Assembly: GCF_024170465.1 (NCBI RefSeq)
Contig: NZ_JALJYF010000001.1
Coordinates: 806,001-870,000 of the forward strand
From: Natronospira proteinivora
Lineage (GTDB): Bacteria > Pseudomonadota > Gammaproteobacteria > Natronospirales > Natronospiraceae
Length of the DNA: 64,000 nt
Direction of reading: 5' to 3'
Part shown: in pieces, positions 9,663 to 58,752 of the stretch
How positions within the stretch are numbered: position 1 is the stretch's first letter
Layout of the letters: every line of letters begins with the position of its first letter
The notes under the pieces: generated by a model
The model's input: only the letters and a program-made list of their open reading frames with translations
The model's database searches: none
Told to the model about the DNA's origin: nothing
Program-made: the position numbers and the translations under genes

Positions 9663-9689
9663 ATAAAAACTCTCTGAAGTTTTTAGACA

Positions 9690-9722: not shown

Positions 9723-9744
9723 GTTGATCAGGCGACACTGCCGT

Positions 9745-10503: not shown

Positions 10504-10543
10504 GATCCGCTCCCGTTGAGTCCGAGTCGTACAGTCTAGTGTT

Positions 10544-11941: not shown

Positions 11942-11997
11942 CGTTGATTTCTATTCTGTCGCCATCACGACTCCATCAAAGCACATGGAAGAAGACA

Positions 11998-41878: not shown

Positions 41879-42462
41879 GCCAGAAGATCAGGGGGGCTGC
41901 ATCTGGCGGCGGTTCCCGCTATCTCATCCTGGGCGGCGTCCGTTCGGGAAAGAGTGCGCTCGCCGAGCGCGCCACGGAGCGATTGCAGAGCGAGATATCC
42001 CATGCCCCAGCCCAGGTGCATTATGTGGCAACGGCCGAAGCCCGGGATGGGGAGATGGCGGATCGGATTCATCGTCATCAGTTCCGACGCCCCGGGCACT
42101 GGGGACTGATTGAAGAGCCCCTTGCATTGGCACAGGTGCTGAAGTCGCAGGATGCGCCCGGGCAGATACTGCTCATTGATTGCATGAGTCTGTGGGTCAG
42201 CAATCTGCTCCATGCCGGCGAGTCCCGGTGCTTGAGGGAGGAGGAAGCCTTTCTGGATGCCTTGTCTGTTTATGCCGGTTCAGTGGTCATTGTCAGCAAT
42301 GAGGTGGGTTGGGGGCTGGTGGGCATGGACCCCCTCAGTCGTCGTTTTGCCGATGCCCTGGGCTCCTTGAATCAGTCGTTGGCAGCTCGTTGTGACCATG
42401 TCTGGATGAGCGTGGCGGGCTTAGCCATAACGCTCAAGGGGCAGGGGCCACCGGCATGTTGA
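41875..42462 (+). CDS. cobU: Adenosylcobinamide kinase/guanylyltransferase
   Basis: Bifunctional enzyme converting adenosylcobinamide to its GDP derivative. The 195 residues include the P-loop ILGGVRSGKSALAE (about 18-31), HYVATAEARDGEMADRI, HRHQFRRPGHWGLIEEP with the guanylylated His region, DCMSLWVSNLL, and SNEVGWGLVG. It overlaps cobC and cbiB. Confidence 0.96.
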   Translation: MSQKIRGAASGGGSRYLILGGVRSGKSALAERATERLQSEISHAPAQVHYVATAEARDGEMADRIHRHQFRRPGHWGLIEEPLALAQVLKSQDAPGQILLIDCMSLWVSNLLHAGESRCLREEEAFLDALSVYAGSVVIVSNEVGWGLVGMDPLSRRFADALGSLNQSLAARCDHVWMSVAGLAITLKGQGPPAC

Positions 42463-43421
42463 TGGCCGTTCTGCTTTGCGTGTTGGCCTTGGTGGTGGAT
42501 CATTATCTCGGCGAGCCTCGCAAGGCACATCCTCTGGTGGCCTTTGGTTGGCTGGCAGGCAGGCTGGAACGCCTTGTGAATCCGTCGGCACGGACTGATT
42601 CCAACGCTCAGGGCCAGATTGGGCGGGGCGCCCTGGCCGTTCTTGTTCTGGTATTGCCGCCCACCTTGCTGGCCTTGTGGGTCAGCCATTGGCTGGTCGG
42701 GCCGGTACTTTGGGTCGTTGAACTCATCGTGCTCTATTTCGCCCTGGGCCGTCGCAGCCTTCGTGATCATGCCCGGGCGGTGGTCCTTCCATTGCAGGCC
42801 GGAGAGCTGGATGTGGCCCGGGATGCGCTCGCCCGGATGGTCAGTCGGGACGTGGCAGCGCTGGATGAGAACGGTATCTCCCGGGCTGCCACTGAATCGG
42901 TTCTGGAGAATGGCTCCGATGCGGTGGTCGCCTCCCTGTTCTGGTTCCTGTTGGCCGGTATTCCTGGCGTGATTTTACATCGCCTAGTGAATACCCTGGA
43001 TGCCATGTGGGGGTATCGGAATCCACGATTCAGGGGCTTCGGTCGCTTCGTCGCCAAGCTGGATGATGCCCTGGCTTACTGGCCGGCCCGACTGACGGCC
43101 CTGGCCTATACCGTGTCGGGGAAAATACGACCGGCCCTGGGTTGCTGGCGTACCCAGGCTGCTCAATGGGACAGTCCCAATGCCGGGCCGGTCATGGCCA
43201 GTGGCGCCGGTGCGTTGAAACTCGGTCTGGGCGGGCCGACGCCGTACCATGGTCAATGGCAGGATCGACCGCGTTTGGGGGTTTGGGCCGTTAATGGTCC
43301 GTCGGTGTCAACCGATTCCGCTCTCAGAGCGTTGAGGTTATTGGACCGTGCCTTGATGATCATTCTGGCCCTGGCTTTTGGTGGAGCAGCGTTATGGCAC
43401 TGGAGCATGGTGGGCGCATAA
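42456..43421 (+). CDS. cbiB: Adenosylcobinamide-phosphate synthase CbiB
   Basis: Membrane enzyme that attaches (R)-1-aminopropan-2-ol O-phosphate to adenosylcobyric acid. The 321 residues have several membrane helices, with the typical start DHYLGEPRKAHPLVAFGWL, SRDVAALDENGISRAATESV, DAVVASLFWFLLAGIPG, LVNTLDAMWGYRN, and FVAKLDDALAYWPAR. The name cbiB is used to avoid confusion with the decarboxylase CobD. It overlaps the next gene by 28 nt. Confidence 0.95.
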   Translation: MLMAVLLCVLALVVDHYLGEPRKAHPLVAFGWLAGRLERLVNPSARTDSNAQGQIGRGALAVLVLVLPPTLLALWVSHWLVGPVLWVVELIVLYFALGRRSLRDHARAVVLPLQAGELDVARDALARMVSRDVAALDENGISRAATESVLENGSDAVVASLFWFLLAGIPGVILHRLVNTLDAMWGYRNPRFRGFGRFVAKLDDALAYWPARLTALAYTVSGKIRPALGCWRTQAAQWDSPNAGPVMASGAGALKLGLGGPTPYHGQWQDRPRLGVWAVNGPSVSTDSALRALRLLDRALMIILALAFGGAALWHWSMVGA

Positions 43422-44392
43422 AGGCGGCGGCCCGAGCCATCGGTATTCCCGAAGACCAGTGGTTGGATCTATCCACAGGAATCAGCCCCTGGAGTTGGCC
43501 ACCACCGCCCATTCCTGATTCCGTCTGGCGCCGTTTGCCGGAGGATGATGACGGCCTGGAAGACCAGGCCCGTCATTGTCTGGGGGTGCCGGATGCGGCC
43601 GGCCTCCAGGCACTGGCGGGTAGTCAGCAGGCCATCATGCGACTGCCTGAACTTCGTCCCTTTTCCCGAGTCGGGGTGCCCATGCCAGGCTATCGCGAGC
43701 ATGCCCATTGTTGGCAGCAGGCGGGGCATCAAGTAGTGGATCTGAGCCGTGAGGAAGTCCCTCAGGCCTTGCCGGAGCTGGACGTACTCGTCTGGATTCA
43801 CCCTAATAACCCCAGTGGTGAAATCGTCCCGGTGGAGACCTTGCTGGCTTGGTGGGAACAACTCCAGGTTCGGGGTGGCTGGCTCATCGTTGATGAAGCC
43901 TTCGTGGAGGCCAGTGACGCCGAGAGTCTGATCTCCCAGACAGGCCGGGAAGGCTTAATTGTCCTTCGTTCCGTGGGAAAGTTCTTCGGTCTGGCGGGGC
44001 TCCGGGGTGGCTTCATGGCAGGCCCGCCGTCGCTTTGCCAGGCGCTTGCCCAGGCCATCGGGCCCTGGGCAGTGAGTGGTCCGGCCCGCTGGCTGATGAG
44101 ACAGGCCTTGACGGATAAAACCTGGCAGGTGATGCAGAAAAAACGGCTCCAGGATGAATCCCGGGCCCTGGTGAGCCTTTTGATGGAAAAGGGGTTTCAT
44201 CCGGTTGGGGGAACGGCGCTTTTCCAGACCGTGCGTCATGATGATCCCCGGCATGTGGAGGCGGCATTAAGGCAGCAGGGGGTATTGGTTCGCGCCTTCG
44301 ATGAGGCACCGTGGCTGCGTTTTGGCTTGCCCGGCGGTGAGGCCCGGATGCTCAGGGCGGCCCGGGCGCTCGATTCAGTCTTGCCTTCGTGA
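43394..44392 (+). CDS. cobD: L-threonine-O-3-phosphate decarboxylase
   Basis: PLP enzyme producing aminopropanol phosphate for CbiB. The 332 residues are of the class I/II aminotransferase fold: HGGRIKAAARAIGI, LDLSTGISPWSW, IHPNNPSGEIVP, LIVDEAFVEAS, and the PLP-binding lysine in RSVGKFFGLAGLRGGF. A C-terminal FDEAPWLRFGLPG follows. Last gene of the cobTSCU-cbiB-cobD cluster; the start overlaps cbiB. The gap of 54 nt to the next gene has no clear terminator. Confidence 0.94.
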   Translation: MALEHGGRIKAAARAIGIPEDQWLDLSTGISPWSWPPPPIPDSVWRRLPEDDDGLEDQARHCLGVPDAAGLQALAGSQQAIMRLPELRPFSRVGVPMPGYREHAHCWQQAGHQVVDLSREEVPQALPELDVLVWIHPNNPSGEIVPVETLLAWWEQLQVRGGWLIVDEAFVEASDAESLISQTGREGLIVLRSVGKFFGLAGLRGGFMAGPPSLCQALAQAIGPWAVSGPARWLMRQALTDKTWQVMQKKRLQDESRALVSLLMEKGFHPVGGTALFQTVRHDDPRHVEAALRQQGVLVRAFDEAPWLRFGLPGGEARMLRAARALDSVLPS

Positions 44393-44446: not shown

Positions 44447-46702
44447 GTGACAAAGCGTGGATCAATGAACCGGCTATCGGATTTCGAGGATGGATTTTAC
44501 CGGACATTGATTGCCAGTGTTCCGGATGCGGTCTATGTCCACGACATTGATGGTCAGATCCTGGAAGCCAACCAAGCAGCCACTCGCCAGACTGGGTATG
44601 AACAGACTGAGTTGTGCCGGATGACGATCATGGACTTGAACCCGTTCAGACGTCCGGATGATATCCAAGAAATGCTTTCCTCCTTGTCGAGGAACTGTTG
44701 CGCCAGTCAGGTGTTTCGAACGAGGCACCGCCGGGCGGATGGTGAGGCGATTCCCGTGGAGGTCCATGTAACCCCGGTGCGTCAGGAGGGTCACGTTTTT
44801 TTCCTTGCCGTGGTAAGGGATATGAGTGATCGGGAACGTCTGGAAATGGACCTTCAGGATAAGGTGGAATTTGATCAATTATTGCTTGATATCTCTTCCC
44901 GACTAGTCAATATCGACCCTGAGGATATTGATCAGGTCATTCATCAGCTTTTGGCCGATATTGGGGCCTTTTTCCAGGCCGGCCGCAGTTATGTATTCAC
45001 CATCGATCATGACGCAAAGACCTTCAGCAATACTCATGAATGGTCGGATGACGGCGTGGCACCGGAGATAGACCATCTGCAGCGGCTGCCCTTTGATGCC
45101 TTCCCATGGCTGATGAAAAACATCCTGAACCGGCAGGTCGCCCATGCGCCGAATATCCTTGACCTCCCAGATGAAGTGGCTCATGAGAGGGAGGAATATC
45201 GTCGACAGCGGATTCGGTCCCTGATCATCGCCCCCATTGTTCGTGGAGATATGGTAACCGGGTTGTTTGGCTTGGATACCGTTCGGGACAAACGTTACTG
45301 GAATGAGGATATTCGCAACAATCTCCGCTTATTGGGTCAGCTGCTAGCCAACGCCATGGATGCTGCAGGCCTGGGTCGTCAGCTCAAACACCTGGCCTAC
45401 CATGATTCCTTGACGCAGCTTCCCAATCGACAGCTTCTGAAAGACCGGATTGAGCAGGGCATTAGCCGTTGTCAGCGGGAATCCTTGAGGCTAGCTGTTA
45501 TGTTGCTGGATCTGGATGACTTTAAATTGGTTAACGACACCTTGAGCCATAGTGCAGGGGATGAACTTTTATGCCAGGTGGCCAAGCGTTTGACGGAGAT
45601 CCTGAGGGATACGGATACGGTTGCTCGCCTGGGTGGCGATGAGTTTGTCCTGGTAACCCAGGTTCGTGATGCAGATGAAGCAGCGGAATTGGCCAAAAGA
45701 GCCCTGGATAATGTAAGCCGACCGATTCGCCTCCAGGGACAAAGGATTGTAACTCACCCTAGCATCGGGATTTCCCTTTTTCCTGATGATGATCACAATC
45801 ACGACACCTTGATGCGCAACGCAGACCTGGCTATGTACGCTGCCAAGGCTGCTGGAAAGAACCGTTTTGCTTTCTATGATCAAAGCATGACGGATCATGC
45901 GCGTAATATGCTTCATCTGCGTCATGAGCTCGTTCAGGGCATACAAGAGGGGCAATTGCTACTGCATTTTCAACCCCGGGTGGATCTAAGAAGTCGTCGT
46001 GTATGCGGAATGGAAGCGCTGGTTCGTTGGCAACATCCTGAGCGGGGATTGTTGATGCCGGGGATGTTTCTGCCACTGGCGGAACGGTCCGATTTGATCT
46101 GCCTGATTGATCATTGGGTATTGGAAACAGCCAGAAAGGAAATGCTGCCCCTGGCCGAATTCATGGGTTCGATTCGGATTGCTGTTAATCTGTCGGCCAG
46201 GGATTTGTATGATTCAGAGCATCTTGATCATCTGCTTTCAATTTTAAAACAGAATTTCAGCCATGGTGGTGTACTCCTGGAACTTGAGATTACGGAATCC
46301 ACTCTGATGCAGGATGTTGATGCGGCCATTGCCCAGCTGCATCGGATAAAGCAGGTGATCCCCGGTGTTCGAATTGCCATTGATGATTTTGGGAGTGGCT
46401 ACTCATCGCTGAATTATCTGCGACGTTTGCCCATCGATATTCTCAAGATTGATCAGTCATTTATTAGAGACCTGGGCGGGGAGAACCCCAGTGCCGAGGC
46501 TATTATCCGCTCCATTATTGAGTTGGCGCGGAACCTGGGCATGCGGGTAGTGGCAGAGGGGATCGAAACAGAGAGCGAAGCTCTTCTGGTTCAGGGGCTG
46601 GGCTGTGACGAAGCCCAGGGTTATTTCTATTCCCAGCCCGTGCCTATGGACGAATTGATTGGGCGATTAGATAGAAATCTGACCTTGTCCCAGGCTATAT
46701 AG
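44447..46702 (+). CDS. PAS-GAF-GGDEF-EAL cyclic-di-GMP signalling protein
   Basis: Cytoplasmic sensor of 751 residues without membrane helices. The PAS domain (about 15-130) contains DAVYVHDIDGQILEANQAA and is followed by a PAC segment. The GAF domain spans about 145-305. The GGDEF domain (about 320-480) has an intact motif RLGGDEFVLV. The EAL domain (about 490-745) has an intact motif GMEALVRWQHPE and also DDFGSGYSSLNYLRRLPID, KIDQSFI and EGIETESEA. Both cyclase and phosphodiesterase activities are therefore possible. The GTG at 44447 has GGAAGA 6 nt upstream; ATG 44465 is an alternative. It sits between two B12 clusters without evident functional link. Confidence 0.93.
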   Translation: MTKRGSMNRLSDFEDGFYRTLIASVPDAVYVHDIDGQILEANQAATRQTGYEQTELCRMTIMDLNPFRRPDDIQEMLSSLSRNCCASQVFRTRHRRADGEAIPVEVHVTPVRQEGHVFFLAVVRDMSDRERLEMDLQDKVEFDQLLLDISSRLVNIDPEDIDQVIHQLLADIGAFFQAGRSYVFTIDHDAKTFSNTHEWSDDGVAPEIDHLQRLPFDAFPWLMKNILNRQVAHAPNILDLPDEVAHEREEYRRQRIRSLIIAPIVRGDMVTGLFGLDTVRDKRYWNEDIRNNLRLLGQLLANAMDAAGLGRQLKHLAYHDSLTQLPNRQLLKDRIEQGISRCQRESLRLAVMLLDLDDFKLVNDTLSHSAGDELLCQVAKRLTEILRDTDTVARLGGDEFVLVTQVRDADEAAELAKRALDNVSRPIRLQGQRIVTHPSIGISLFPDDDHNHDTLMRNADLAMYAAKAAGKNRFAFYDQSMTDHARNMLHLRHELVQGIQEGQLLLHFQPRVDLRSRRVCGMEALVRWQHPERGLLMPGMFLPLAERSDLICLIDHWVLETARKEMLPLAEFMGSIRIAVNLSARDLYDSEHLDHLLSILKQNFSHGGVLLELEITESTLMQDVDAAIAQLHRIKQVIPGVRIAIDDFGSGYSSLNYLRRLPIDILKIDQSFIRDLGGENPSAEAIIRSIIELARNLGMRVVAEGIETESEALLVQGLGCDEAQGYFYSQPVPMDELIGRLDRNLTLSQAI

Positions 46703-46749
46703 CAAGGCTCTATTTGACCTGATTCCCAGGTCCTGTTACTTTTTGCGCC

Positions 46750-46960
46750 GCATCAGGTGTCCCCAGGACCCATCCGGGTCGGGGATTAAACGGGAAGTCG
46801 GTGATCCAGTCCGACGCTGCCCCCGCAACGGTGATTGAGCGAGTCGCCTCCACAAGCGACTCAGGGCGACCACCCCTAGCCACTGTGCCAACGAGCATGG
46901 GAAGGCGGTCGTCTCGGCCTGTCCTGACGGACATGCCACTCATCAGCCCGTAGACCGGCC
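46750..46960 (+). ncRNA. Cobalamin riboswitch
   Basis: All hallmark segments occur in order: AGGTGTCC near the 5' end, GGGATTAAACGGGAAGTCGG, GTGATCC, the core GACGCTGCCCCCGCAACGGT, GCCACTG, GGGAAGGCGG, and the B12 box AGCCCGTAGACCGGCC (about 46945-46960). Binding of adenosylcobalamin or a related corrinoid should switch off the downstream btuB operon. The boundaries are approximate. The 168 nt between it and btuB form the expression platform described separately. Confidence 0.96.
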
Positions 46961-47061
46961 TGTTGCAGGAGGAGGCATCAAGCCCCTCCAGCCGCGCGTT
47001 GCGGAGGGCGACGTCGGGCTGGTCAAAGCGTACCGCTTATAGTCCCTGACTGCCCGAACAC

Positions 47062-47128: not shown

Positions 47129-49003
47129 ATGAAGCTTTTCCATTTTTCGGTGCTGTGTGCAGCGCCCGTCTATCTTGTGACTGCGGTTTCACTTCATGCA
47201 GGTCAGGCGCAATCCGCCCCCCAGGAACTGGATGAATTGGCCTACCTGGATGCCGAAGGCATGGTGGCCGGGGAGGCTTGGCTAAACCCGGTGGTGGTTA
47301 CCGCGACCCAGACCCAACGTTCTGCGGAAGAGAGTCTTTCTTCTATTTCGGCCATCGACCAAGACAGCATTCGCCGTCAGGAGCCTCGGGAGTTCGGGGA
47401 ACTGCTCAGAGCGCGCCCCGGAATTGATGTTATATCCAATGGCGCCTTTGGGAAGGCGACGAGCCTCTTTATTCGGGGTACCAGCAGTGATCAGAGCTTG
47501 TTGTTGGTGGATGGAATTCGTATGGGGTCGGCAACCACCGGCGGGGCTTCATGGCAATTTTTGCCCACCACAATGATTGACCGTGTGGAAGTGGTACGTG
47601 GTCCGCGAAGCAGTGTATACGGAGCGGATGCCATTGGGGGCGTGGTGCAGGTATTCACACCCCAGGGCAGTGATGAAACCGAACAGTGGTTCAATCTTGG
47701 AACAGGCTCCTTTGGAAGCCATGAATATGGCCTGGGCGCCCAGGGCGGAGGGGAAACCACCCGGTTCAGTGTGGGTGCAAGCCATTCCCATACCGACGGT
47801 ATTGCACTGCAAGAAGGGGGAGAACGCCGTGGTTACTACAATACCTCTGCCATGGCTCGGGTTACCCAGGAGCTGGGGGCCATGGCAAACCTGGGGTTCA
47901 CCGGACTTCGCTCTCAAGGTCGTACCGAGTTCCTGGATGGCAAAACAGACTTTGTCCATCAGGCGGCCGGCACCAGTTTGGAAATGGCGCCCAACCCCTT
48001 CTGGGATGTGGAGCTGAGCCTGAGCGAAAGCCGGGACGAAGCGGATAACTATGACGACGGCGCCGATGAGCCCACGCGCTTTGATACCCGCCGCCAGATG
48101 GTGGCCTGGCAAAACCGGATTCATACCGGCAACCACGAGTGGGTGCTGGGGGTGGATTATCGAGACGACAAGATCGAATCCACCACCGACTACGCAGAGG
48201 ATAGCCGGGATAACATCGCCGTCTTTGCCCAGGCATTGCTTGATTTCAACCCGGTGAGCTTGGAAGTCGGACTTCGTCATGATGACAACGAAAGCTATGG
48301 TACTGCCACCACCGGCAGTTTTGGGGTGGGCTATCGCCTGAATGACCATCACCGCTTACGCATGACCTGGGGCGAGGGTTTTAAAGCACCCAGTTTCAAT
48401 GATCTTTATTTTCCCGGGTTTGGTAACCCGGAGCTGGGTCCGGAAGAATCCGAAAGTGTGGAGATTGGTATATCGGGTCACTATGAACGTTGGTTCTGGG
48501 ACGGGGTCGCCTATCGCACCCGGGTGGATAACTTGATCGAGTCGGTTTTGGTGGATGGTGTATTTTTGCCCGAAAACGTGGCTGAGGCCCGGATGGAAGG
48601 TCTGGAGATTTCTGCGGGCCTGGATCTGGACGACTGGGTTATCTACGGCAGCTGGAGTTATCTCGACCCCGAGAATCGTGAAAGCGGAAATCGGCTTCGC
48701 CGCCGGGCCAAGCAAAGCTTCCGCCTGGAGGTGGATCGTGAGATTGGCGACTGGTCGTTGGGTGGCACGGTGGTGGCCCAGGGGCACCGCTTCAACGATG
48801 CCGAGGGGGAAGAACGCCTGGCCGGCTTTGGGCTGCTGAATCTGCGCGTGGGTTGGACCCTGTCCGAGAACTGGCGCACACGCCTGACGGTGAATAACGC
48901 CCTGGACAAGGACTATGTCACGGCTCGGGACAGTTTCAACGATTTCGACTATCAACAACCGGGGCGGAACGTCTTTCTGAGCCTGCGCTACGGAGACCGC
49001 TAA
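47129..49003 (+). CDS. btuB: TonB-dependent cobalamin receptor BtuB
   Basis: Outer-membrane corrinoid receptor of 624 residues. It has a signal peptide (about 1-25), a TonB-box-like PVVVTATQ (about 53-60), and a plug domain with LRARPGIDVISNGAFGKATS, SLFIRGTSSDQSLLLVDGIR and RVEVVRGPRSSVYGADAIGG. A 22-strand-type barrel follows, containing GEGFKAPSFNDLYFPGFGNP and ending LRYGDR. The ATG at 47129 is chosen because AAAGGGA (47113-47119) precedes it. The riboswitch upstream supports cobalamin as substrate. It is first in the riboswitch operon; the next gene starts 3 nt after the stop. Confidence 0.94.
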   Translation: MKLFHFSVLCAAPVYLVTAVSLHAGQAQSAPQELDELAYLDAEGMVAGEAWLNPVVVTATQTQRSAEESLSSISAIDQDSIRRQEPREFGELLRARPGIDVISNGAFGKATSLFIRGTSSDQSLLLVDGIRMGSATTGGASWQFLPTTMIDRVEVVRGPRSSVYGADAIGGVVQVFTPQGSDETEQWFNLGTGSFGSHEYGLGAQGGGETTRFSVGASHSHTDGIALQEGGERRGYYNTSAMARVTQELGAMANLGFTGLRSQGRTEFLDGKTDFVHQAAGTSLEMAPNPFWDVELSLSESRDEADNYDDGADEPTRFDTRRQMVAWQNRIHTGNHEWVLGVDYRDDKIESTTDYAEDSRDNIAVFAQALLDFNPVSLEVGLRHDDNESYGTATTGSFGVGYRLNDHHRLRMTWGEGFKAPSFNDLYFPGFGNPELGPEESESVEIGISGHYERWFWDGVAYRTRVDNLIESVLVDGVFLPENVAEARMEGLEISAGLDLDDWVIYGSWSYLDPENRESGNRLRRRAKQSFRLEVDREIGDWSLGGTVVAQGHRFNDAEGEERLAGFGLLNLRVGWTLSENWRTRLTVNNALDKDYVTARDSFNDFDYQQPGRNVFLSLRYGDR

Positions 49004-49006
49004 GTC

Positions 49007-52000
49007 ATGCGTGCCATGATCTTTGCGGTGTTCGTCCTGCTCTTGCTGGGCGGCTACCAGCCCGCATGGGGTAAGACGGTGGTGGGTGTGGTGTCGGAAC
49101 GCTCGGCCGCCGAAGTGGCGGCCGGGGCCCACCGCTTTCTGGAGGAGGTCCCTGAGAGCCGGATACAGTTGCGGACGCCGGAGCAGATTGCGGAGATGGC
49201 GGATTCCGAGGTCCGCGATTTCCTGGGCCAGGGCGATGCCATTTTCCTGGCGGCCGTGTTCGGCGATCAGGTCTCGCGACTGCAGCGCCTGGTCCAGGAA
49301 GGCCCAGTGGCCGATGGCAAGCCGATCCTGGCCATCAACAGTGATCGGCGAATCACTCGACTCTCTCGCCTTGGGGGAGAGGCAGTTCTTGATGAGCTGG
49401 ACGCCGATGAGCTGTCTCGCCTGACTGCCAATCCGGCACCAGGCGAGGACCCGGAAGCCCATCTGGCCGAGCAGCGCCAAACCTTCTCCCGGCAATCGGA
49501 ATGGTTGAAGGGGCGGGCCTTCTATATGGGACGGAGTCCGGAGCATATGTCGGGTTTGATGGCCTGGCTCTTGTCCCAGGCCGGGCATTCCCTGGATGTG
49601 CCCGAACCTTCCCCTCGGGAAGCCGTTCGTTACTATCGCGACGGTGAATCCTTCTCGAACCCGGAGAAATTGGATCTGGATGAGGGCCCGGCCGTTGTCT
49701 TGCTGGACCTGGACCGGGGCGATCGCCCCGGTGACCGGGCCTTGCTGGATAACAGCTGTGAGGCGGTGGAAGCCCGGGGCATGCAGTGTTTTGCCGTTCT
49801 TGCCCGTTGGGGTGGGGGTAGCCGTGAAGCCGTGGAGACCCTGACCGAACGCATGGCGTCGGCGGAGCTGACGGCGGTGGTGAGCCTTCAATTCTTTGCC
49901 GTTGGCGGTGGGGAAGGGCGTCAGGCCGTCACCGAGGCCTTCGAAAACCTGGATGTCCCTGTCATCAAGGGGATTCGCCTTGCCGGCAGTAGCGAGGAAG
50001 AATGGCGCCTGTCGCTGGATGGTATTCCCCAGGACCAGGTCTATTTCCGCGTGGCCATGCCGGAGTTGCAGGGCATCAGTCAGCCGCAAGTACTGGCCGT
50101 CGCCGAGCCGCCACAAGTGGATCCGCAGACCGGAATCCACTATGTGCTGACCCAACCATTGACTGAACAGGTGGCGGGGCTGGCGGATCGCCTTAAGCGT
50201 TGGCAACGGCTACGGGCAATGGATAACAGCGAAAAGCGGGTGGCCATGGTTTACTACAACCACCCGCCCGGTCGTCATAACATCGGTGCCGATAAGCTGG
50301 ATGTGCCCGAGTCGCTGATGGAATTGCTGCGGCTGATGAAGGCCGCCGGCTACGATACCGGCCCCTTGCCCGAAGATGCCGAAGCCCTGCTGGACAAGAT
50401 CCAGGACCGGGGTATCAATGCCACCGACGATGGTGAGCAACTGGCTCGAATGCATGGCCAGGTGGCCAGTCTTTCCGCCTCGGATTACCAACAATACTTT
50501 GAAACCCTGCCCGAGGTGATTCAGGGCGAGTTGCAGCATGGGCCCTTGGGCTATCTCCATGCCCGTTTGGAAGCTGCCTATTCAGAAGCTGAACATGAGC
50601 ACGGTCGGCGCTTGCTGGAGCGGACCCTGGCGGATTTGCGCCACCTGGTCGAGAACCACCAGCATGAGGCCCAGGAAAGGGCATTGTCCTTGCTCGACCA
50701 GTATGAAGCCGCCTGGTCGGAGCGCTTGGCTGGCCGGCAAGCCGATCAGGACCCGGAGTCCATTCGCGATGCCCTAGTGCGTACGGGTATGCCGGGTCTG
50801 TCCGGTTGGGGTGCGCCACCGGGCGAGGCCATGGTGCATGAAGGGGAAATGCTTTTCCCGGGCATTCGCTTTGGCAATGTCTTCATCGGTCCGCAACCAC
50901 CGCGGGGCTGGGAGATTCGCGAGTCCCTGCTGCACGCCAATACCAGCTTCCCGCCCACCCACCAGTATGTGGGGTTTTACCACTGGATCAGGGATCATTT
51001 CGAAGCGGATGCTCTGGCTTATATCGGCCGGCATTCCACCCGTGAGTTCCTGCCCCGACGGCGGGTGGGGTTGGGCGATGATGACTATCCGGCTCTGCTG
51101 GGTGGGGATTTGCCGGTGATCTATCCCTACATCGTGGATGGGGTCGGCGAAGGTATCCAGGCCAAGCGCCGGGCCATGGCGGTGATCGTCAGTCACCTGA
51201 CCCCACCGTTGGCCACCACTGAACTGTATGACGAGTTGCTGGAGTTACGGCAACTGGTGGAAACCTACGAATCGGCGACGGACCCGGACAGCCCCACCCG
51301 CCGCCGGGCGGCCGAGACCCTGCGGGATCGCATCGAAGCCCTGGAACTGACCGATGTCATTGAACGGGAAATCGCCGACGACTTGGGTGTGACCGTCAGC
51401 GAAGTGTCTCTGGAAGAGGTCTCCGAATCCCTCCTGGTCCATGAAGCCGGCCATTACGTCACCCACATGCAGGAGCATTTCATGCCCCTGGGCCTGCATG
51501 TCTTCGGTCGGGATTGGGATGAAGAGGCCCTTGAAACCATGCTCAAGTCCATGGCCGGGGACGGGGAAGTGGACGCCGAAGCCGAGCAGGCATTGCGGGA
51601 TTCGCCGGCGGCTGAAGCGGCCCATTTCCTGGGCGCCTTGTCGGGCCGTTTTGTACCGCCGGGGCAGGGCAATGATCCCATCCGCACGCCCCAGGCCTTG
51701 CCCACGGGGACCAATTTCCATGCCCTGTCCAGTGATTTGATCCCCACCCGGATCGCCTGGCGCTTGGGCCAGGAGCTGGCCGCCGAGGCCCGGGATCGGG
51801 GCGCGCCGGAGGCCGATGGCAGCGAGGCTTTGGTACTCTGGGCCTCCGATACCGTCCGTGATGAAGGCGCCATGGTGGCCTTCGGCCTGGACATGATGGG
51901 GCTGACGCCGGAGTGGAATTCCCGCGGCATCGTCAGTGGCGTCGCCCGGCAGGACCTTGAGACGCTGGACCGCCCCCGCCAGGATGTGCTGTTCACCACC

Positions 52001-53359
52001 TCCGGTCTGTTCCGTGATCTTTATGCCGACCAGCTGGTGTTGCTGGACCAGGCGGTCAAGGTGGCCCTGGATGGGGCCTATGAAACCATCCAAGCCGAGT
52101 ACCCGGCCTTGCAAACCGCTCTGGACGCCAGTCTCGAGGAACTCCCGGAGTCCATGCGGGACCCCGGCAGCGAAAGCCTGGCGATGAATCGGGTGGCTGC
52201 CCAATGGGTAGAGGATACCCGGGGGCTGATTGCCCAGGGCATGAACGCAGACAAGGCCGGTCGCCAGGCCAGCCTGCGTATCTTTGGGACAGCCCCCGGT
52301 GCCTACGGGGCCGGTATCACCCGCCTGACTGAACGTTCCAGTGCCTGGGAGGATCGGGACCAGTTGGCCGAGGCCTATGTCCGCCGCATGGGGCATGCCT
52401 ACGGCATGGTGGCACAAGGGGAGCCAGCCCATGCGGCCTTCGATCAGCGACTCTCCACCGTGGGCCGAACCTATCTGGGCCGAGCCAGCCATATCTATGC
52501 CTTGCTGGATCGGGATGATGCCTTTGATTTCCAGGGCGGACTATCCCTGGCCGTGGAAAAGGCCCGGGGAGAGGCCCCCGCCAATCGGGTTCTGATGCAT
52601 GCGGACCCGGACAATCCCTATGTGGATAGCCTGGAAAGGGCGCTTTTGACTGAGTTACGGGCCCGAAATCTCAATCCTCAATGGTTGCAACCGCTGATGG
52701 ACCACGGCTACGCCGGGGCGAGAACCATGGGCCGGGATTTCCTGGATAACCTTTGGGGTTGGCAGGTAACCGCCCCGGAGGTGATTGATTCCTGGGTCTG
52801 GGACGAAGTCCATGCGGTCTATCTGGAGGATCGCCATGGCCTGGGTCTGGATGAATTCCTGGCCCAGGATCATAACGTCCATGTGAAGACCCATATGCAG
52901 TCAGTGATGCTGGTGGCCGCCCATCGGGGCTACTGGGAAGCAGACGCCCAGGTGCTGGCCGATCTGCAGGAAGACTTTGCCGCCCTGGTAGCCGAACATG
53001 GCCTGCCGGGCAGCGGTCATTCCCGGCCGGATCACCCCACCATGGACTGGGTGGCCGATCAGATCGACCCCGAGCTGCGCGAGGCTTTTGAAGCACGGCT
53101 TGATGCGGCCCGCATGGAGCAGGCCGAGGCGGAAACGGACCCAGCCCGGGTGATGGAGATCGCACCGCGACTGGATGAGGCGAGCGAAGACATCGAGGCC
53201 AGCGATCAGGATTCGGCCGAGCGCGATGAAGGCGCGCAATCCGAGCAGGATGAAGGCCAGGAAGAGGGGCCGGCACAGAGCCTCTATCTCTGGGCTATTG
53301 TGGCGGTGGCCCTTCTGCTCTTGATCGGTGGCATTCTGACCGGTCGCCGGGGGAGGTAG
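49007..53359 (+). CDS. Extracytoplasmic CobN-like chelatase subunit with C-terminal membrane anchor
   Basis: Giant protein of 1450 residues homologous to the CobN/BchH chelatase H subunit. CobN hallmarks are NHPPGRHNIGADKLDVPES (about 423-441), IVDGVGEGIQAKRR, HFMPLGLHVFGRDW (about 822-835) and a C-terminal TMGRDFLDNLWGWQVTAPEV. Unlike classical CobN it has a signal peptide (1-22, cleavage after PAWG) and a C-terminal membrane helix (about 1425-1444) after an acidic stretch, so the bulk should lie in the periplasm. HEAGH at 812-816 formally matches HExxH. No ATP-hydrolysing CobS/CobT-type partners are nearby. Instead an ExbB-like and a DUF2149 gene follow directly. I infer a role in handling imported corrinoid, either metal insertion or removal or transfer, coupled to the proton gradient. 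Bacteroidetes HmuS is the nearest analogue I know. Confidence 0.85.
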   Translation: MRAMIFAVFVLLLLGGYQPAWGKTVVGVVSERSAAEVAAGAHRFLEEVPESRIQLRTPEQIAEMADSEVRDFLGQGDAIFLAAVFGDQVSRLQRLVQEGPVADGKPILAINSDRRITRLSRLGGEAVLDELDADELSRLTANPAPGEDPEAHLAEQRQTFSRQSEWLKGRAFYMGRSPEHMSGLMAWLLSQAGHSLDVPEPSPREAVRYYRDGESFSNPEKLDLDEGPAVVLLDLDRGDRPGDRALLDNSCEAVEARGMQCFAVLARWGGGSREAVETLTERMASAELTAVVSLQFFAVGGGEGRQAVTEAFENLDVPVIKGIRLAGSSEEEWRLSLDGIPQDQVYFRVAMPELQGISQPQVLAVAEPPQVDPQTGIHYVLTQPLTEQVAGLADRLKRWQRLRAMDNSEKRVAMVYYNHPPGRHNIGADKLDVPESLMELLRLMKAAGYDTGPLPEDAEALLDKIQDRGINATDDGEQLARMHGQVASLSASDYQQYFETLPEVIQGELQHGPLGYLHARLEAAYSEAEHEHGRRLLERTLADLRHLVENHQHEAQERALSLLDQYEAAWSERLAGRQADQDPESIRDALVRTGMPGLSGWGAPPGEAMVHEGEMLFPGIRFGNVFIGPQPPRGWEIRESLLHANTSFPPTHQYVGFYHWIRDHFEADALAYIGRHSTREFLPRRRVGLGDDDYPALLGGDLPVIYPYIVDGVGEGIQAKRRAMAVIVSHLTPPLATTELYDELLELRQLVETYESATDPDSPTRRRAAETLRDRIEALELTDVIEREIADDLGVTVSEVSLEEVSESLLVHEAGHYVTHMQEHFMPLGLHVFGRDWDEEALETMLKSMAGDGEVDAEAEQALRDSPAAEAAHFLGALSGRFVPPGQGNDPIRTPQALPTGTNFHALSSDLIPTRIAWRLGQELAAEARDRGAPEADGSEALVLWASDTVRDEGAMVAFGLDMMGLTPEWNSRGIVSGVARQDLETLDRPRQDVLFTTSGLFRDLYADQLVLLDQAVKVALDGAYETIQAEYPALQTALDASLEELPESMRDPGSESLAMNRVAAQWVEDTRGLIAQGMNADKAGRQASLRIFGTAPGAYGAGITRLTERSSAWEDRDQLAEAYVRRMGHAYGMVAQGEPAHAAFDQRLSTVGRTYLGRASHIYALLDRDDAFDFQGGLSLAVEKARGEAPANRVLMHADPDNPYVDSLERALLTELRARNLNPQWLQPLMDHGYAGARTMGRDFLDNLWGWQVTAPEVIDSWVWDEVHAVYLEDRHGLGLDEFLAQDHNVHVKTHMQSVMLVAAHRGYWEADAQVLADLQEDFAALVAEHGLPGSGHSRPDHPTMDWVADQIDPELREAFEARLDAARMEQAEAETDPARVMEIAPRLDEASEDIEASDQDSAERDEGAQSEQDEGQEEGPAQSLYLWAIVAVALLLLIGGILTGRRGR

Positions 53360-53365
53360 CACGAC

Positions 53366-53806
53366 ATGATCTCGATCAGTCTGGACTTGATGAGTACGGT
53401 GGTGAACGGGCTGTTGTTCCCGGTGGTCATCACCTTGTTGGCGCTGGTCCTTTTGACCCTCTGGGAAAGCGGACTGGCGATCGGCGAGCGCAGCGGTGGC
53501 CTGGCCCGGATTGAAAAGGACGGTTGCCTGGAGACCATGGCGGCCCGGGCCCGGCGCCGAATCGATCGAGCCGACTTGCTGGCCCGTATCGGACCCATGC
53601 TGGGCCTGATGGGCACTCTGATTCCCCTGGGGCCGGGGCTTGCCGCCCTCAGCCGGGGGGATCTGGAAGTGTTGGCGGAGGCGGTGACTGTGGCCTTCAA
53701 CACCACCGTTCTGGGTCTATTGATCGGCATCCTGGGTTTTGTCATCGGCCGTCTGCGCCGTCGCTGGTATGACGCCGCCATGGGTCGGTTGGAGGCTCGG
53801 TCATGA
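53366..53806 (+). CDS. MotA/TolQ/ExbB-family proton channel protein
   Basis: Inner-membrane protein of 146 residues with three helices (about 10-32, 73-96, 107-129). The segment LLARIGPMLGLMGTLIPLGP and the following AEAVTVAFNTTVLGLLIGILG match the conserved core of ExbB/TolQ, in which the channel lines the proton path. It is shorter than ExbB (about 240) because the long N-terminal and cytoplasmic extensions are missing. GGGAGGT precedes the start. It overlaps the DUF2149 gene by 4 nt, and its partner is presumably that product and/or the CobN-like anchor. Confidence 0.88.
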   Translation: MISISLDLMSTVVNGLLFPVVITLLALVLLTLWESGLAIGERSGGLARIEKDGCLETMAARARRRIDRADLLARIGPMLGLMGTLIPLGPGLAALSRGDLEVLAEAVTVAFNTTVLGLLIGILGFVIGRLRRRWYDAAMGRLEARS

Positions 53807-54099
53807 GCACCCCGGCTTACCGTCAAAGCCGCTTTGATACCGACGACGGAGATCCCATGGGGCCGCTGGCCAATCTGGCGGACATCATGCTGGTATTTGC
53901 AGTGGGATTGATGGTGGCCCTCGCCGCGGCACAGGGTGGGCTGGAGGACAGCCACGGCGGTGTGGAAGTGGAAGCCGGCCAGGAGCTGCCGGATGTGCCC
54001 CAGGGTGTGGGGGAGGCCGGCAGTGGTTATGAATCCATGGGCCGTGTTTATCGTGATCCCGAGACGGGTGAAATGGTACTGATTGGAGGCGATGACTGA
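53803..54099 (+). CDS. DUF2149 protein, ExbD-like
   Basis: Protein of 98 residues. The N-terminal cytoplasmic part RFDTDDGDPMGPLANLADIM leads into one membrane helix (about 24-43, ADIMLVFAVGLMVALAAA), followed by a short periplasmic tail. The DPMGPLANLxD segment is characteristic of DUF2149. Asp27 at the start of the helix lies where ExbD/TolR carry their proton-coupling Asp (compare the VDVMLVLL-type motif), so I infer an ExbD role with the preceding ExbB-like protein. The start overlaps the preceding stop, and its own stop overlaps the btuF start. Confidence 0.85.
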   Translation: MSTPAYRQSRFDTDDGDPMGPLANLADIMLVFAVGLMVALAAAQGGLEDSHGGVEVEAGQELPDVPQGVGEAGSGYESMGRVYRDPETGEMVLIGGDD

Positions 54100-55004
54100 T
54101 GAAGCGCTACTCTCAAGGCTCTGTATGGAGAGTCGTCCTGTTGTCGCTATGCTTGCTGGCAAGCGCAAACCTGTTCGCCGAATCCGAGCGCTGCGTGGTG
54201 GACGACATGGAACGGCTGGTCTGCCTTGACAGACCAGCGGAATCAATTGTGACCCTGTCTCCCGGTATGGCGGAGTTGATGTTTGAAGCGGGCGGCGGGG
54301 ATGCCATTGTCGGGACCACCTCCTTTAGTGATTACCCGGAGGCGGCCGAGGATATCCCCCGGATCGGGAGCTTCAAGCGGCTTGATCTGGAGGCGGTCCT
54401 GGCCCGTGAACCGGACCTGATCGTTGCCTGGATCACGGGTAATCCCACCGAGCAGGTACTCAAGCTGGAAGAGATGGGCCTTCCGGTCTATTGGGGCGAG
54501 CAGCGCGACTTTGATGATGTGGCGGCTACCCTGCGCCGTTTCGGGGTCTTGGCCGGTAGCGAGAACATTGCCAATGCGCGGGCGGATGAATTTGAGTCCC
54601 AATTAGAGGCCCTGAGGGACCGTTACCGTGATGCCGACCCGGTTGAGGTATTCTATCAGATATGGGATGACCCCATCATGACCATCAACGGGGAGCATCT
54701 GATCAGTCGCGCTATTGGCGTCTGCAGTGGCCGGACCCTGTTTTCGGATCTGGAAAGACTCACCCCGCGTCTGGACACCGAGTCCATTCTGGCGGCAGAC
54801 CCGGAAACCATCATCGCCGGTGGCATGGGGGAGAACGATCCCAGCTGGCTGGAATACTGGGAACAGTATGAAAACATGACGGCTGTGCGACGGGATCAGC
54901 TCTATTTTGTGCCCCCCTCAACCTTGCAGCGGCCAACACCCAGAATTCTGGATGGGATAAAACAGGTCTGTCATCATCTGGACGAAGTTCGTGAGCGCCG
55001 TTGA
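54099..55004 (+). CDS. btuF: Cobalamin ABC transporter substrate-binding protein
   Basis: Periplasmic corrinoid-binding protein of 301 residues. A signal peptide (about 1-27) precedes the class III binding-protein fold: RPAESIVTLSPGMAELMFEAGG, GTTSFSDYPEAAEDIPRIGS, LEAVLAREPDLIVAWITGNP, and the C-terminal lobe with EVFYQIWDDPIMTINGEHLI. Glu and Asp residues at the lobe surfaces would contact BtuC arginines. The riboswitch and neighbours identify the substrate class. Its stop is followed by btuC. Confidence 0.92.
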   Translation: MKRYSQGSVWRVVLLSLCLLASANLFAESERCVVDDMERLVCLDRPAESIVTLSPGMAELMFEAGGGDAIVGTTSFSDYPEAAEDIPRIGSFKRLDLEAVLAREPDLIVAWITGNPTEQVLKLEEMGLPVYWGEQRDFDDVAATLRRFGVLAGSENIANARADEFESQLEALRDRYRDADPVEVFYQIWDDPIMTINGEHLISRAIGVCSGRTLFSDLERLTPRLDTESILAADPETIIAGGMGENDPSWLEYWEQYENMTAVRRDQLYFVPPSTLQRPTPRILDGIKQVCHHLDEVRERR

Positions 55005-55029
55005 TCCCACCACAGCGCGAGGACGTGTC

Positions 55030-56010
55030 ATGAGGCCGGCCCTGCCGCGGCTTTGGCCGCCCCTCTTGCTCTTGTCCTTAGTTGGCGTGGTGTCATTGTG
55101 CCTGGCGGTGGCCATCGGCAGTGTCTCGATTGCCCCCATGGACCTGTTGGCGGTGTTGGGCGGCGAGGGCAGCCAGTTGCACCGCACCCTGATTTTCGAT
55201 CTGCGCCTGCCTCGGGCTTTGGCGGCCTTTGCCGTGGGCGGTTTGCTGGGCGTTGCCGGTGCCCTGATGCAGGTCCTGCTGAGGAACCCCCTGGCCGATC
55301 CCTATGTACTCGGACTTTCAGGCGGTGCGGCGGTGGGGGCCCTGTCCGCCATGTTGCTGGGGGCGGGCGTGGCCTGGGTCTCCGGCTCGGCTTTCGTCGG
55401 CGCCCTGATTTCCATGGTGCTGGTCTTCGGCCTGGCCCATGGAACGGGCAGCTGGACCCCGACCCGTCTCTTGTTGACTGGTGTGGTGGTTGCAGCCGGT
55501 TGGGGCGCGGTCATTACCTTCATGTTGGCGATCAGTCCGGCTGAGCGAATTCCCGGGATGCTTTACTGGTTGATGGGGGATTTGGCCTATGCCAGAGGAC
55601 CCGGGCCCGCCACGACCGCCCTGATCCTGGTCTGCTTGCTGACCATTCCCCTGGGGCGCAGCTTGAATGTACTGGCCAAGGGGCCGTTGCAGGCGGCTGC
55701 GCTGGGCGTCTCGGTCCGGCCCTTGACCTGGTCGGTGTATATCGTGGCCAGCCTGATTACCGCGGTGGCGGTGACCACTGCCGGCAGCATCGGCTTTGTG
55801 GGGCTGGTGGTCCCGCATATGCTCCGGCTCATACTGGGCAATGATCAGCGCCTGATCCTGCCGGCCTCGGCATTGGGCGGCGGTATCCTGCTGACCCTGG
55901 CGGATACCCTGGCCCGGACCATGCTGGCCCCGGAGCAACTCCCGGTGGGGGTGATTACCGCCATGCTCGGCGTGCCCACTTTCCTCTATTTGCTCTACAG
56001 AAGCCGCTGA
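55030..56010 (+). CDS. btuC: Cobalamin ABC transporter permease
   Basis: FecCD/BtuC-type permease of 326 residues with about ten membrane helices. Conserved parts are LRLPRALAAFAVGGLLGVAG, LRNPLADPYVLGLSGGAAVG, GSIGFVGLVVPHMLRLILG and the C-terminal LPVGVITAMLGVPTFLYLL. I chose ATG 55030 because CGAGGA lies 6 nt upstream. The in-frame GTG at 54991 would overlap btuF by 14 nt and add 13 polar residues. Confidence 0.93.
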   Translation: MRPALPRLWPPLLLLSLVGVVSLCLAVAIGSVSIAPMDLLAVLGGEGSQLHRTLIFDLRLPRALAAFAVGGLLGVAGALMQVLLRNPLADPYVLGLSGGAAVGALSAMLLGAGVAWVSGSAFVGALISMVLVFGLAHGTGSWTPTRLLLTGVVVAAGWGAVITFMLAISPAERIPGMLYWLMGDLAYARGPGPATTALILVCLLTIPLGRSLNVLAKGPLQAAALGVSVRPLTWSVYIVASLITAVAVTTAGSIGFVGLVVPHMLRLILGNDQRLILPASALGGGILLTLADTLARTMLAPEQLPVGVITAMLGVPTFLYLLYRSR

Positions 56011-56012
56011 TC

Positions 56013-56780
56013 ATGGCTGTGCTCAGTACCGACAAATTGCAGATCGATATTCCGGGGCGGGCCGATGGCTCACCGCTGGATATCAGCATTCAGCCGGGGG
56101 AACTCTGGGGCGTGCTGGGACCCAATGGGGCCGGCAAGACCACCTTGCTGCACACCCTGGCCGGTCTCAGGGCGCCCCGTCATGGGGGCGTGAGCCTGGA
56201 CGGGACCGACCTTCGCCGGCTCAATCGTCGCCAGGTGGCCCGTACCCTGGCCGTGGTCTTTCAGGATCATCAGGACAGTTTCCCCGCCACCGTGCTGGAA
56301 ACGGCCCTGGTAGGCCGCCATCCCCATCTGTCGCCCTGGGACCTGGACACGGCGGAAGATATGAATATCGCCCTGGATGCTCTGGCACGCCTGGAGTTAT
56401 CGGGGATGGAATCCCGGGTGATCAGCACCTTGTCCGGTGGCGAGCGCCAGCGCCTGGCGATTACCACGGCCCTGACCCAGCAGCCGGCCATCTGGCTGGC
56501 CGATGAGCCCACCAACCACCTGGACTTGCATCACCAGGTGGCCATCATGCGTTTGCTCCGGGACCAGGCCCACTCCGGCCAGGCGGTCTTCATGTGCCTG
56601 CATGATCTGAATATCGCCGCGCGCTGGTGCGATCGGTTACTGCTTCTACAGCCGGACGGCCAGGCCTGCTGGGGCCGGGCTGAGGAGATGCTGGTGCCGG
56701 ACGCCCTGGAGCGTTTGTACGGTCAGCGCCTACAGGTGGGGACTATTAACGGGGCGCGGGTGTTCGTGCCGGTGGAATAG
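56013..56780 (+). CDS. btuD: Cobalamin ABC transporter ATP-binding protein
   Basis: ATPase partner of BtuC, 255 residues. Walker A is GPNGAGKT (about 35-42), followed by Q-loop VVFQDHQDSFPATV, signature LSGGERQRLAI, Walker B IWLADEPTNHLDLHHQ and switch His in CLHDLN. It starts 2 nt after the btuC stop. A 19-nt gap separates it from cbiA. Confidence 0.93.
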   Translation: MAVLSTDKLQIDIPGRADGSPLDISIQPGELWGVLGPNGAGKTTLLHTLAGLRAPRHGGVSLDGTDLRRLNRRQVARTLAVVFQDHQDSFPATVLETALVGRHPHLSPWDLDTAEDMNIALDALARLELSGMESRVISTLSGGERQRLAITTALTQQPAIWLADEPTNHLDLHHQVAIMRLLRDQAHSGQAVFMCLHDLNIAARWCDRLLLLQPDGQACWGRAEEMLVPDALERLYGQRLQVGTINGARVFVPVE

Positions 56781-56799
56781 CGAGGAGAACGTGGGATCC

Positions 56800-58125
56800 A
56801 TGAGTGATTCAGGAGAGACCATTCAGGCACGGGTAGCGGCCGCCATGATTACTGCCCCCGGCTCCGGCCAGGGCAAGTCCATGGTGACCGCGACCCTGGC
56901 CCGGCTGCACCGCAATGCCGGGCGCCGGGTGCGGGTCTTCAAGCACGGGCCGGACTATCTGGACCCGATGGTGCTGGAAAAGGCCTCGGGGGCACCCGTC
57001 TACCAGCTGCATCCCTGGATGACCGGGGAGGCAGAATGTGCCTGGCGCTTGGCCGATGCGGCTTCGGAGGCGGACCTGGTTCTGGTGGAGGGCTCCATGG
57101 GCCTGTTTGACGGCAATCCCTCCAGCGCCGATCTCGCCGTACTGGGTGGCTTGCCGGCCCTGCCGGTGATCGATGCGGCCGGCATGGCCCAGACCTTCGG
57201 CGCGGTAGCCCTGGGCCTGGCCCGCTACCGCGAGGATGTCCCGGTCCATGAGGTGATCGCCAACCGGATCGGCAGCCCCGGCCATGGCCGCATGCTGGCC
57301 GAAAGCCTGCCCGAGGGGATTCGGTTGCTGGGTGCGGTGCCTCGTCACGAGGCCATGAATATTCCCGATCGTCATCTGGGCATCGTTCAGGCCCAGGAGA
57401 TCCAGAATCTGGATGAGCAGCTGGATGCCGCCGCCGAGGTATTGCAGGCCGCCGGGCTTGATCAACTGCCCAAAGAAATCCAGTTGAGCGCTCGGCGCCC
57501 GGCGCCACCGCCCCGCCTGCTGGAAGGGTGCCGCATTGCCATTGCCCGGGACCGGGCCTTTGCCTTCATCTACCGGGCCAATACCGAACTGCTGGAGGCC
57601 ATGGGGGCCAGCCTGGATTATTTCTCTCCCCTGGCCAATGAAACCGTGCCCGAGGCCGATGCCATCTGGTTGCCGGGCGGCTATCCCGAGCTCCATGCCG
57701 CCAAATTGGCCGGGCAGTCGGCCTTTCGCGACTGGCTGCAGGCCCATCATCAAGCAGATCGCCCCATACTGGCGGAATGCGGCGGCATGATGGCCTGCAT
57801 GGAAGCGCTGGTGGATGGCGACGGCGAGCGCCATGCCATGGCCGGTCTGCTCCCCGGGGAAAGCATCATGGTGGGGCGGCTCATGGGGCTGGGGATTCAG
57901 TCCCTGGAGACAGCGGCCGGCAGCTTGCGGGGGCATACCTTCCACCATTCCCGGCTGGAGACCCCATTAGAGCCCCTGGCCCATACTCGCCGGCAACGGT
58001 TTGATAGCGCCGGTGAAGCGGTCTATTCCGACAAATCCCTACTGGCCAGCTATTTCCACAGTTACTTCCCGTCCAGCCCGGCGGCTGCGGCCGCCCTGTT
58101 TCGACGGGATGAGCCCCTTTTCTGA
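56800..58125 (+). CDS. cbiA: Cobyrinate a,c-diamide synthase
   Basis: ATP- and glutamine-dependent amidase that converts cobyrinate (or hydrogenobyrinate) to the a,c-diamide. It has an N-terminal dethiobiotin-synthetase-like P-loop domain (ITAPGSGQGKSMVTATL, then KHGPDYLDPMVL and LVEGSMGLFDGN). The C-terminal glutaminase-like domain contains DAIWLPGGYPELHAAKLA and ILAECGGMMACME with the nucleophile Cys, and ends with TFHHSRLE and YFHSYFPSSP. The start is ambiguous: GAGGAG lies 3 nt before GTG 56791 and 12 nt before ATG 56800. Also called cobB. Confidence 0.93.
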   Translation: MSDSGETIQARVAAAMITAPGSGQGKSMVTATLARLHRNAGRRVRVFKHGPDYLDPMVLEKASGAPVYQLHPWMTGEAECAWRLADAASEADLVLVEGSMGLFDGNPSSADLAVLGGLPALPVIDAAGMAQTFGAVALGLARYREDVPVHEVIANRIGSPGHGRMLAESLPEGIRLLGAVPRHEAMNIPDRHLGIVQAQEIQNLDEQLDAAAEVLQAAGLDQLPKEIQLSARRPAPPPRLLEGCRIAIARDRAFAFIYRANTELLEAMGASLDYFSPLANETVPEADAIWLPGGYPELHAAKLAGQSAFRDWLQAHHQADRPILAECGGMMACMEALVDGDGERHAMAGLLPGESIMVGRLMGLGIQSLETAAGSLRGHTFHHSRLETPLEPLAHTRRQRFDSAGEAVYSDKSLLASYFHSYFPSSPAAAAALFRRDEPLF

Positions 58126-58140: not shown

Positions 58141-58752
58141 ATGCGAGAAAACGCCAAACATCCCGAACGCCATGCCGAACGGATGCGCAAAAAGCAGGCC
58201 GTGATGCGAGAGCGCATCGAACGGGCCGACAAGGACCAGGGGGTCCTGTTGGTGCTCACCGGGCCCGGTAAAGGCAAGAGCAGCTCCGGTTTCGGCATGC
58301 TGGCCCGCAGCCTGGGCCACGGCTACAAGGTGGGGGTGGTTCAGTTCATCAAGGGCAAGTTCGTCACCGGCGAGGATCGCTTTTTTCGTGACCATCCCCA
58401 GGTGGATTACCACGTGATGGGGCAGGGCTACACCTGGGACACCCAGGACCGGGAACGGGACGTGGCAGCCGCCGAGGCGGCCTGGGTGGAGGCCCGGCGC
58501 ATGCTCAATGATGACAGCTACCACCTGGTGCTCCTGGATGAATTGAATATCGTCCTTCGCAATGAATACCTGGACCTGGACACCGTACTGGATGACCTGA
58601 TGAACCGTCCCGCCATGCAGCATGTGGTGGTCACCGGTCGCAATGCCAAACAGCCGCTTATCGATATCGCCGATACCGTGACCGAAATGCAGGTGGTCAA
58701 GCACGCCTTCAAGGACGCCGGCATCCGGGCCCAAAAAGGGGTCGAGCTTTAA
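58141..58752 (+). CDS. cobO: Cob(I)yrinic acid a,c-diamide adenosyltransferase
   Basis: CobA/CobO/BtuR-type corrinoid adenosyltransferase, which attaches the upper 5'-deoxyadenosyl ligand. The 203 residues include the N-terminal helix [12 protein letters not shown], the P-loop [45 protein letters not shown] and [17 protein letters not shown] lies 9 nt upstream of the start. It sits between cbiA and cobQ, in pathway order. Confidence 0.96.

Follow-up and report, generated by a model that had tools for sequence, protein, structure and literature searches.

Organization of the locus

The window, a stretch of 64,000 nucleotides from Natronospira proteinivora, contains an operon for corrinoid uptake and completion; the operon and the late corrinoid genes upstream of it lie on the forward (+) strand. 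A cobalamin riboswitch (46738–46977; Rfam RF00174, 92.7 bits, E 9.9e-22) precedes a btuB-type gene for a TonB-dependent corrinoid receptor (47129–49003) with Pfam plug and barrel domains. The receptor scores 476 bits against TIGR01779, the TonB-B12 equivalog, which is under that model's cut-off of 599.7; its start was taken as the ATG at 47129, with a GTG at 47102 as the alternative. Three adjacent genes follow, spanning 49007–54099. They encode a CobN homologue of 1450 residues (49007–53359; PF02514, 838 bits), an ExbB/TolQ/MotA-like membrane protein of 146 residues (53366–53806; PF01618, 39.6 bits, and a family alignment), and a DUF2149 protein of the HmuV type with one membrane helix (53803–54099; PF09919, 34.5 bits, and an alignment). 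For the CobN homologue we adopt the name BtuS, given to a third type of CobN in PMC6460266.

An importer comes next, with a btuF-type binding protein (54099–55004; PF01497, and PRK03379 at 152 bits, under its cut-off), a btuC-type permease (54991–56010; PF01032, 283.5 bits), and a btuD-type ATPase (56013–56780; PF00005, 112 bits). The remaining genes are cbiA/cobB for (hydrogeno)cobyrinate a,c-diamide synthase (56791–58125; NF002204, 408 bits, over its cut-off), the adenosyltransferase gene btuR/cobO (58141–58752; over the cut-offs of both NF004637 and TIGR00708), and cobQ for cobyric acid synthase (58769–60232), an open reading frame that, used as a CobQ query, matches cobQ-like genes in related cob/btu loci. 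Genes within the operon overlap or are separated by gaps of a few bases, and none of them encodes a metal permease. The order from riboswitch through btuB, the CobN homologue, the ExbB-like and DUF2149 genes to btuF-btuC-btuD, which a preliminary description had proposed, is confirmed by the Rfam and Pfam matches. Upstream, at 41875–44392, are open reading frames for the late corrinoid genes cobU, cbiB, and cobC/cobD, named by sequence inspection and with relatives in the same loci. The stretch from the cobC/cobD gene to the riboswitch contains a gene (44447–46702) for a sensor of 751 residues that is PAS/GAF-GGDEF-EAL in appearance.

The N. proteinivora genome is 98% complete and encodes one CobN homologue. 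Neither the precorrin-8X methylmutase CbiC/CobH nor CobT was found in it, and a search of it for ChlID-type proteins gave weak general matches only. Because CbiC/CobH and CobT are both missing, the bacterium most likely does not make its own corrin ring and, judged by its gene content, would be a corrinoid salvager. Despite these gaps it has retained cbiA, whose product acts on very early corrins.

BtuS, an exported member of the class I chelatase superfamily

Both ends of BtuS bear out the signal peptide and C-terminal anchor claimed for it at the outset. The N-terminus is a signal-type segment, and a hydrophobic helix at residues 1426–1444 is followed by arginines, which by the positive-inside rule would place the body of the protein on the periplasmic side. 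Signal-type N-termini are present in all 19 members of the BtuS clade and a C-terminal hydrophobic segment in 17, the latter count being a judgement of the sequences that admits some members under the hydropathy threshold used.

The PF02514 score, against a gathering cut-off of 24.5, assigns BtuS to the superfamily of CobN, ChlH, and HmuS, while it falls under every NCBIfam CobN/BchH cut-off, including that of TIGR02257 (524 bits; cut-off 822). A structure model of residues 230–1400 (pLDDT 74, pTM 0.55) resembles CobN 7c6o (Z 40.2, rmsd 8.1 over 773), ChlH (Z 37.5), and HmuS (Z 32.7), and the C-terminal half matches the CobN corrin-site structure 9fpc (Z 39.5, rmsd 2.0 over 377 residues). These matches of the predicted fold show membership in the superfamily and do not indicate the reaction. 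The best profile match among solved structures is HmuS, at 521 bits.

His676, in the GxH motif of a GRHST segment, is invariant in the 19 BtuS sequences and aligns with His522 of CobN and with His538 of HmuS, which is essential for heme turnover (PMC12583661). Other HmuS residues are not conserved: the columns of Met79 and His254, which belong to heme site 1, hold Val/Leu/Ile and Glu/Asp in BtuS, and that of His1209 holds Asp (Asp1171), as it also does in CobN. Cys251, Cys261, His546, His553, His643, the HExGH motif at 812–816, and His1338 do not vary within BtuS, are seldom or never found elsewhere, and are possible metal or disulphide sites. Residues 1335–1344 form a GSGHxxPDHP-like motif that, like the Cys251/Cys261 pair and HExGH, is specific to the clade.

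The BtuS clade and its association with corrinoid genes

Relatives of BtuS, at about 45–63% identity, are encoded by Massilia as well as by 16 gammaproteobacterial genomes or records besides this one; a contig scan with the single protein as query gave only four loci. In trees of 41–42 rows the 19 BtuS rows form one group with support of 100, apart from CobN, BchH, and the Hmu-type proteins. Forcing BtuS and CobN into one clade is rejected (p-AU 0.0015), so that the CobN/HmuS tree called for in the preliminary description does not place the protein among cytoplasmic CobN. Together with the signal-type N-termini and C-terminal segments of the clade, this AU test leads us to reject the idea that BtuS is a normal cytoplasmic CobN whose signal peptide is an artefact.

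A cobalamin riboswitch lies in 16 of the 19 BtuS loci versus none of the eight Hmu-type loci. The Fisher p of 1.8e-4 for this contrast, computed on seven Hmu loci with the eighth scanned later, overstates independence because the loci are kin to one another. One genome (G627) has both modules: in the first, BtuS is accompanied by a riboswitch, cobB, and cobO; the second is HmuY-linked and without a riboswitch. At another BtuS locus (L050) there is no riboswitch, and cbiZ adjoins the module. The suggested tie of the module to corrinoid uptake is thus upheld by the corrinoid genes and riboswitches at BtuS loci.

The module itself and its name are not new, and the earlier description of the machine as unexplored was too strong. 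BtuS was proposed as a third CobN type with a predicted role in salvage by Rodionov et al. in 2003, as cited in PMC6460266, and PMC6460266 and PMC10100974 describe hmu-like operons with cobalamin riboswitches in Bacteroides; in published work, Bacteroides BtuS1 and BtuS2 were tested in heme-iron use. HmuS is a structurally solved heme dechelatase (PMC12583661). The two modules are homologous and share the same three genes, in line with what the preliminary description said of the Bacteroidetes hmu loci. In hmuYRSTUV of Bacteroidota, HmuS (BtuS2) is likewise an exported, anchored CobN-family protein with the catalytic histidine, MotA/ExbB-like and DUF2149 partners, and a TonB receptor; that system handles heme and includes HmuY and the permease HmuT, whereas here there are a cobalamin riboswitch, BtuFCD, and corrinoid genes. 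The Bacteroides riboswitch operons have a similar architecture and were already noted in PMC10100974 as probably cobalamin-related. They belong to another phylum, and operons for de novo synthesis, a joint loss of motor and anchor, and an analysis of clades are absent from the available text of that paper. Apparently new are the separate proteobacterial corrinoid clade, the place of BtuS as sole candidate chelatase in CobG operons, and the joint loss of motor and anchor: a partial literature search found no earlier report of any of the three, and no functional study of the corrinoid-linked proteobacterial clade.

BtuS at the head of corrin synthesis operons

In three genomes (G236, G121, and G089) the riboswitch-BtuS-ExbB-DUF2149 module stands directly ahead of cobO, cobB, SUMT, cbiD, an ABC-2 pair, cobG, cobH, cobI, cobJ, cobL, and cobM, with bluB and cobK nearby. 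CobG exceeds its cut-off in all three; it does so in seven genomes, the other four (G209, G085, G171, and G070) being set aside because the surroundings contain no further corrin genes. CobG is the marker of the oxygen-dependent, late-cobalt route, for which CobNST is required in known biology (PMC7689651). The sole CobN match in each of the three genomes is BtuS. The search for chelatases and chelatase partners, which covered ChlID, CobT, and CbiX, found in the three genomes no convincing ChlID-type partner (a positive control with classical CobN, G272, scored 368.8 bits) and no CbiX, and no CobT in G236 and G121. A CobT match in G089 was rejected, being a VWA protein next to DUF3150. Because the three genomes (L043, L044, L046) form one tight clade, they count as one evolutionary instance. 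A further genome, G143, has a CobS/CobT-like pair and lacks CbiC.

BtuS thus resembles CobN of the CobN-CobS-CobT system in being a six-domain class I chelatase homologue, in carrying Asp at the HmuS His1209 column, and in occupying the place of the chelatase in three CobG-type operons. CobN, in contrast, is cytoplasmic and driven by the AAA+ proteins CobST, whereas BtuS is exported and anchored, belongs to a separate clade, and has no detected CobST. The preliminary description had assigned the machine to a step between BtuB and BtuF. This stands as one possible setting, but not as the only one, since de novo aerobic corrin operons in three genomes begin with the module.

The ABC-2 pair between cbiD and cobG is YadGH-like in all three de novo operons (L043, 788–2487; L044, 688–2381; L083, 16905–18595). 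It is possibly a corrin exporter, or its position may be due to chance.

The ExbB-like and DUF2149 partners

DUF2149 occurs in 18 of 274 gammaproteobacterial genomes, and in all 18 a CobN homologue lies no more than about 4 kb away (Fisher p ~7e-19 for co-occurrence). This association, for which the preliminary description had recommended a search, is not due to chance. Residues G80, L81, T84, P87, and G89 of the ExbB-like protein are conserved in the family alignment, and the acidic residue in the DUF2149 helix (Asp27 in the window) is either Asp or Glu in each of the 20 sequences. HmuV, a DUF2149 protein, is described as ExbD-like in PMC10100974. Profile comparison of DUF2149 with ExbD gave no significant match, the nearest solved chain being MotB-related at E 0.12.

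One genome (G435) and a Marinobacter plasmid have operons that retain btuB and lack the ExbB-like and DUF2149 genes, and their BtuS lacks the C-terminal anchor. The two are sisters with full support, so the tree needs one change for this joint loss; because the Pfam model overlooks a divergent DUF2149 copy in G349, the absence in G435 holds for the operon only. Since motor genes and anchor disappear together while BtuB is kept, the pair probably works on BtuS, via its anchor, and not on BtuB. The same two cases show that the motor can be dispensable. The link between anchor and motor is not universal, because two proteins outside the BtuS clade (L037a and L144a) are anchored, secreted, and CobN-like in loci without motor genes. 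In these loci (L037, 7020–16206; L144, 4142–12210) the exported, anchored CobN-like gene lies beside classical cobN with no ExbB-like or DUF2149 gene nearby; in L037 a cobW-like gene separates the two. At L047, in a genome that lacks CbiC, a tetrapyrrole methylase gene (13617–14288) separates the ExbB-like gene from the DUF2149 gene.

A possible role in cobalt insertion

We tentatively favor, with somewhat less than even confidence, the idea that BtuS is a periplasmic class I chelatase that inserts cobalt into corrins with the help of the proton motive force. BtuS would be a membrane-anchored tetrapyrrole chelatase working on the periplasmic side. In genomes with the corrin pathway it would replace the missing CobN-CobS-CobT; in salvagers such as the window bacterium it would act on imported early corrinoids that are metal-free or wrongly metallated, which BtuFCD, CbiA, BtuR, and CobQ would then import and complete. 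The ExbB-like and DUF2149 proteins would together be a small proton motor that works on BtuS at its C-terminal anchor, in place of the ATP-driven AAA+ ring, which could not work in the periplasm. What we infer is the direction of the reaction, its substrate, the proton coupling, and, in the de novo genomes, corrin export.

Membership in the ExbB family and the lack of ATP in the periplasm point to a proton drive. Insertion is favored over removal because the operons keep and complete the ring, because CobG operons need a chelatase, because cobalt can be taken out of corrins without destruction of the ring only with great difficulty, and because cobalt-free corrinoids do occur, being made by some purple sulfur bacteria under cobalt lack (PMC6771967 for both). 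Several considerations oppose this reading. HmuS, the nearest relative that has been studied, takes metal out and works in vitro without a motor. The de novo cases amount to one evolutionary instance, DUF2149 did not match ExbD significantly by profile, and two close relatives have BtuS without a motor. Hydrogenobyrinate diamide is normally produced in the cytoplasm, and the one hint of its export is the YadGH-like ABC-2 pair of the de novo operons. We regard as rather unlikely the broader proposal of a third energy scheme for class I chelatases, in which proton-motive-force-driven ExbB/DUF2149 would replace the AAA+ CobST for periplasmic cobalt insertion even in de novo aerobic producers, with export and re-uptake of the corrin.

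It is also conceivable, but unlikely, that BtuS does for B12 what HmuS does for heme: as a dechelatase of corrinoids or an exchanger of their metal, it would act in the periplasm and take cobalt, or a different metal, out of imported corrinoids or other chelates of cobalt. The homologous three-gene module of HmuS removes iron from heme (PMC12583661), HmuS is the top profile match, and sister modules are found with metal transport, in Runella among hydrogenase hyp genes and in Pseudomonas as PA1922-PA1925 under Zur control (PMC4542158); in Massilia a TonB receptor and a PepSY_TM protein accompany the module. Yet the corrinoid completion genes directly downstream suggest that the ring survives, cobalt corrins are not readily demetallated (PMC6771967), and the HmuS site 1 residues and His1209 are absent from BtuS. 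The lack of a metal permease gene in the window operon also argues against removal, which would moreover leave the CobG operons with no other chelatase unexplained.

These operons weigh as well against a non-catalytic, motor-driven relay that hands corrinoids from BtuB to BtuF and gives the transfer direction or selectivity, since in all three BtuS is the first gene of de novo synthesis. In the window, G349, and G435, btuS follows btuB and precedes btuF, a position that would suit a relay, as would the tetrapyrrole-binding fold and the clade-specific invariant residues, but the catalytic His676 is invariant and btuF is far from btuS, or absent near it, in several loci; we think this role improbable. 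Somewhat more doubtful is the view that the ExbB-like/DUF2149 pair energizes TonB and BtuB and is unconnected with BtuS. It follows the published proposal for HmuU/HmuV and HmuR (PMC12583661, PMC10100974), but DUF2149 keeps close to a CobN homologue in the 18 genomes and not merely to a receptor, btuB persists in G435 and the Marinobacter plasmid where motor and anchor have vanished, and Trichlorobacter has the pair in addition to a full ExbB-ExbD-TonB set.

If BtuS does insert cobalt, a step of B12 synthesis thought to be cytoplasmic and ATP-driven would also exist as an exported, probably proton-driven machine. Some apparent B12 auxotrophs might then live on metal-free corrins of their neighbors, and the uncharacterized HmuU and HmuV would gain a role in moving a chelatase instead of an outer-membrane receptor.

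Related modules at other loci

The P. aeruginosa operon PA1922-PA1925, controlled by zinc starvation (Zur), likewise combines a TonB receptor, a CobN-like protein, and a motor-like pair. Locus L057 resembles this type; it belongs to the Hmu-side clade and has no detected cobalamin riboswitch. A Runella plasmid (L036, 3269–11303) carries a TonB receptor, a "urease accessory" membrane protein, and MotA-like, DUF2149, and CobN-like genes inside a hydrogenase hyp cluster, a setting that suggests a form of the module devoted to nickel. On a Trichlorobacter plasmid (L035, 3348–14757) two cobalamin riboswitches precede genes for a TonB receptor, DUF2162, MotA-like, DUF2149, and CobN-like proteins; the separate ExbB-ExbD-TonB set follows the CobN-like gene, and bza and cobT genes adjoin. 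Locus L143 of G514 (2331–13734) has a cut cobalamin riboswitch followed by a TonB receptor and DUF2162-like, ExbB-like, DUF2149, CbiZ-type, and CobN-like genes, together with a CbiK-looking protein, a BtuF-like protein, and another ExbB-ExbD-TonB set. At two loci (L039, 15092–18613; L046, 16295–19834) a TonB receptor and a PepSY_TM-type protein are encoded near a cobalamin riboswitch, and may serve in the uptake of cobalt chelates.
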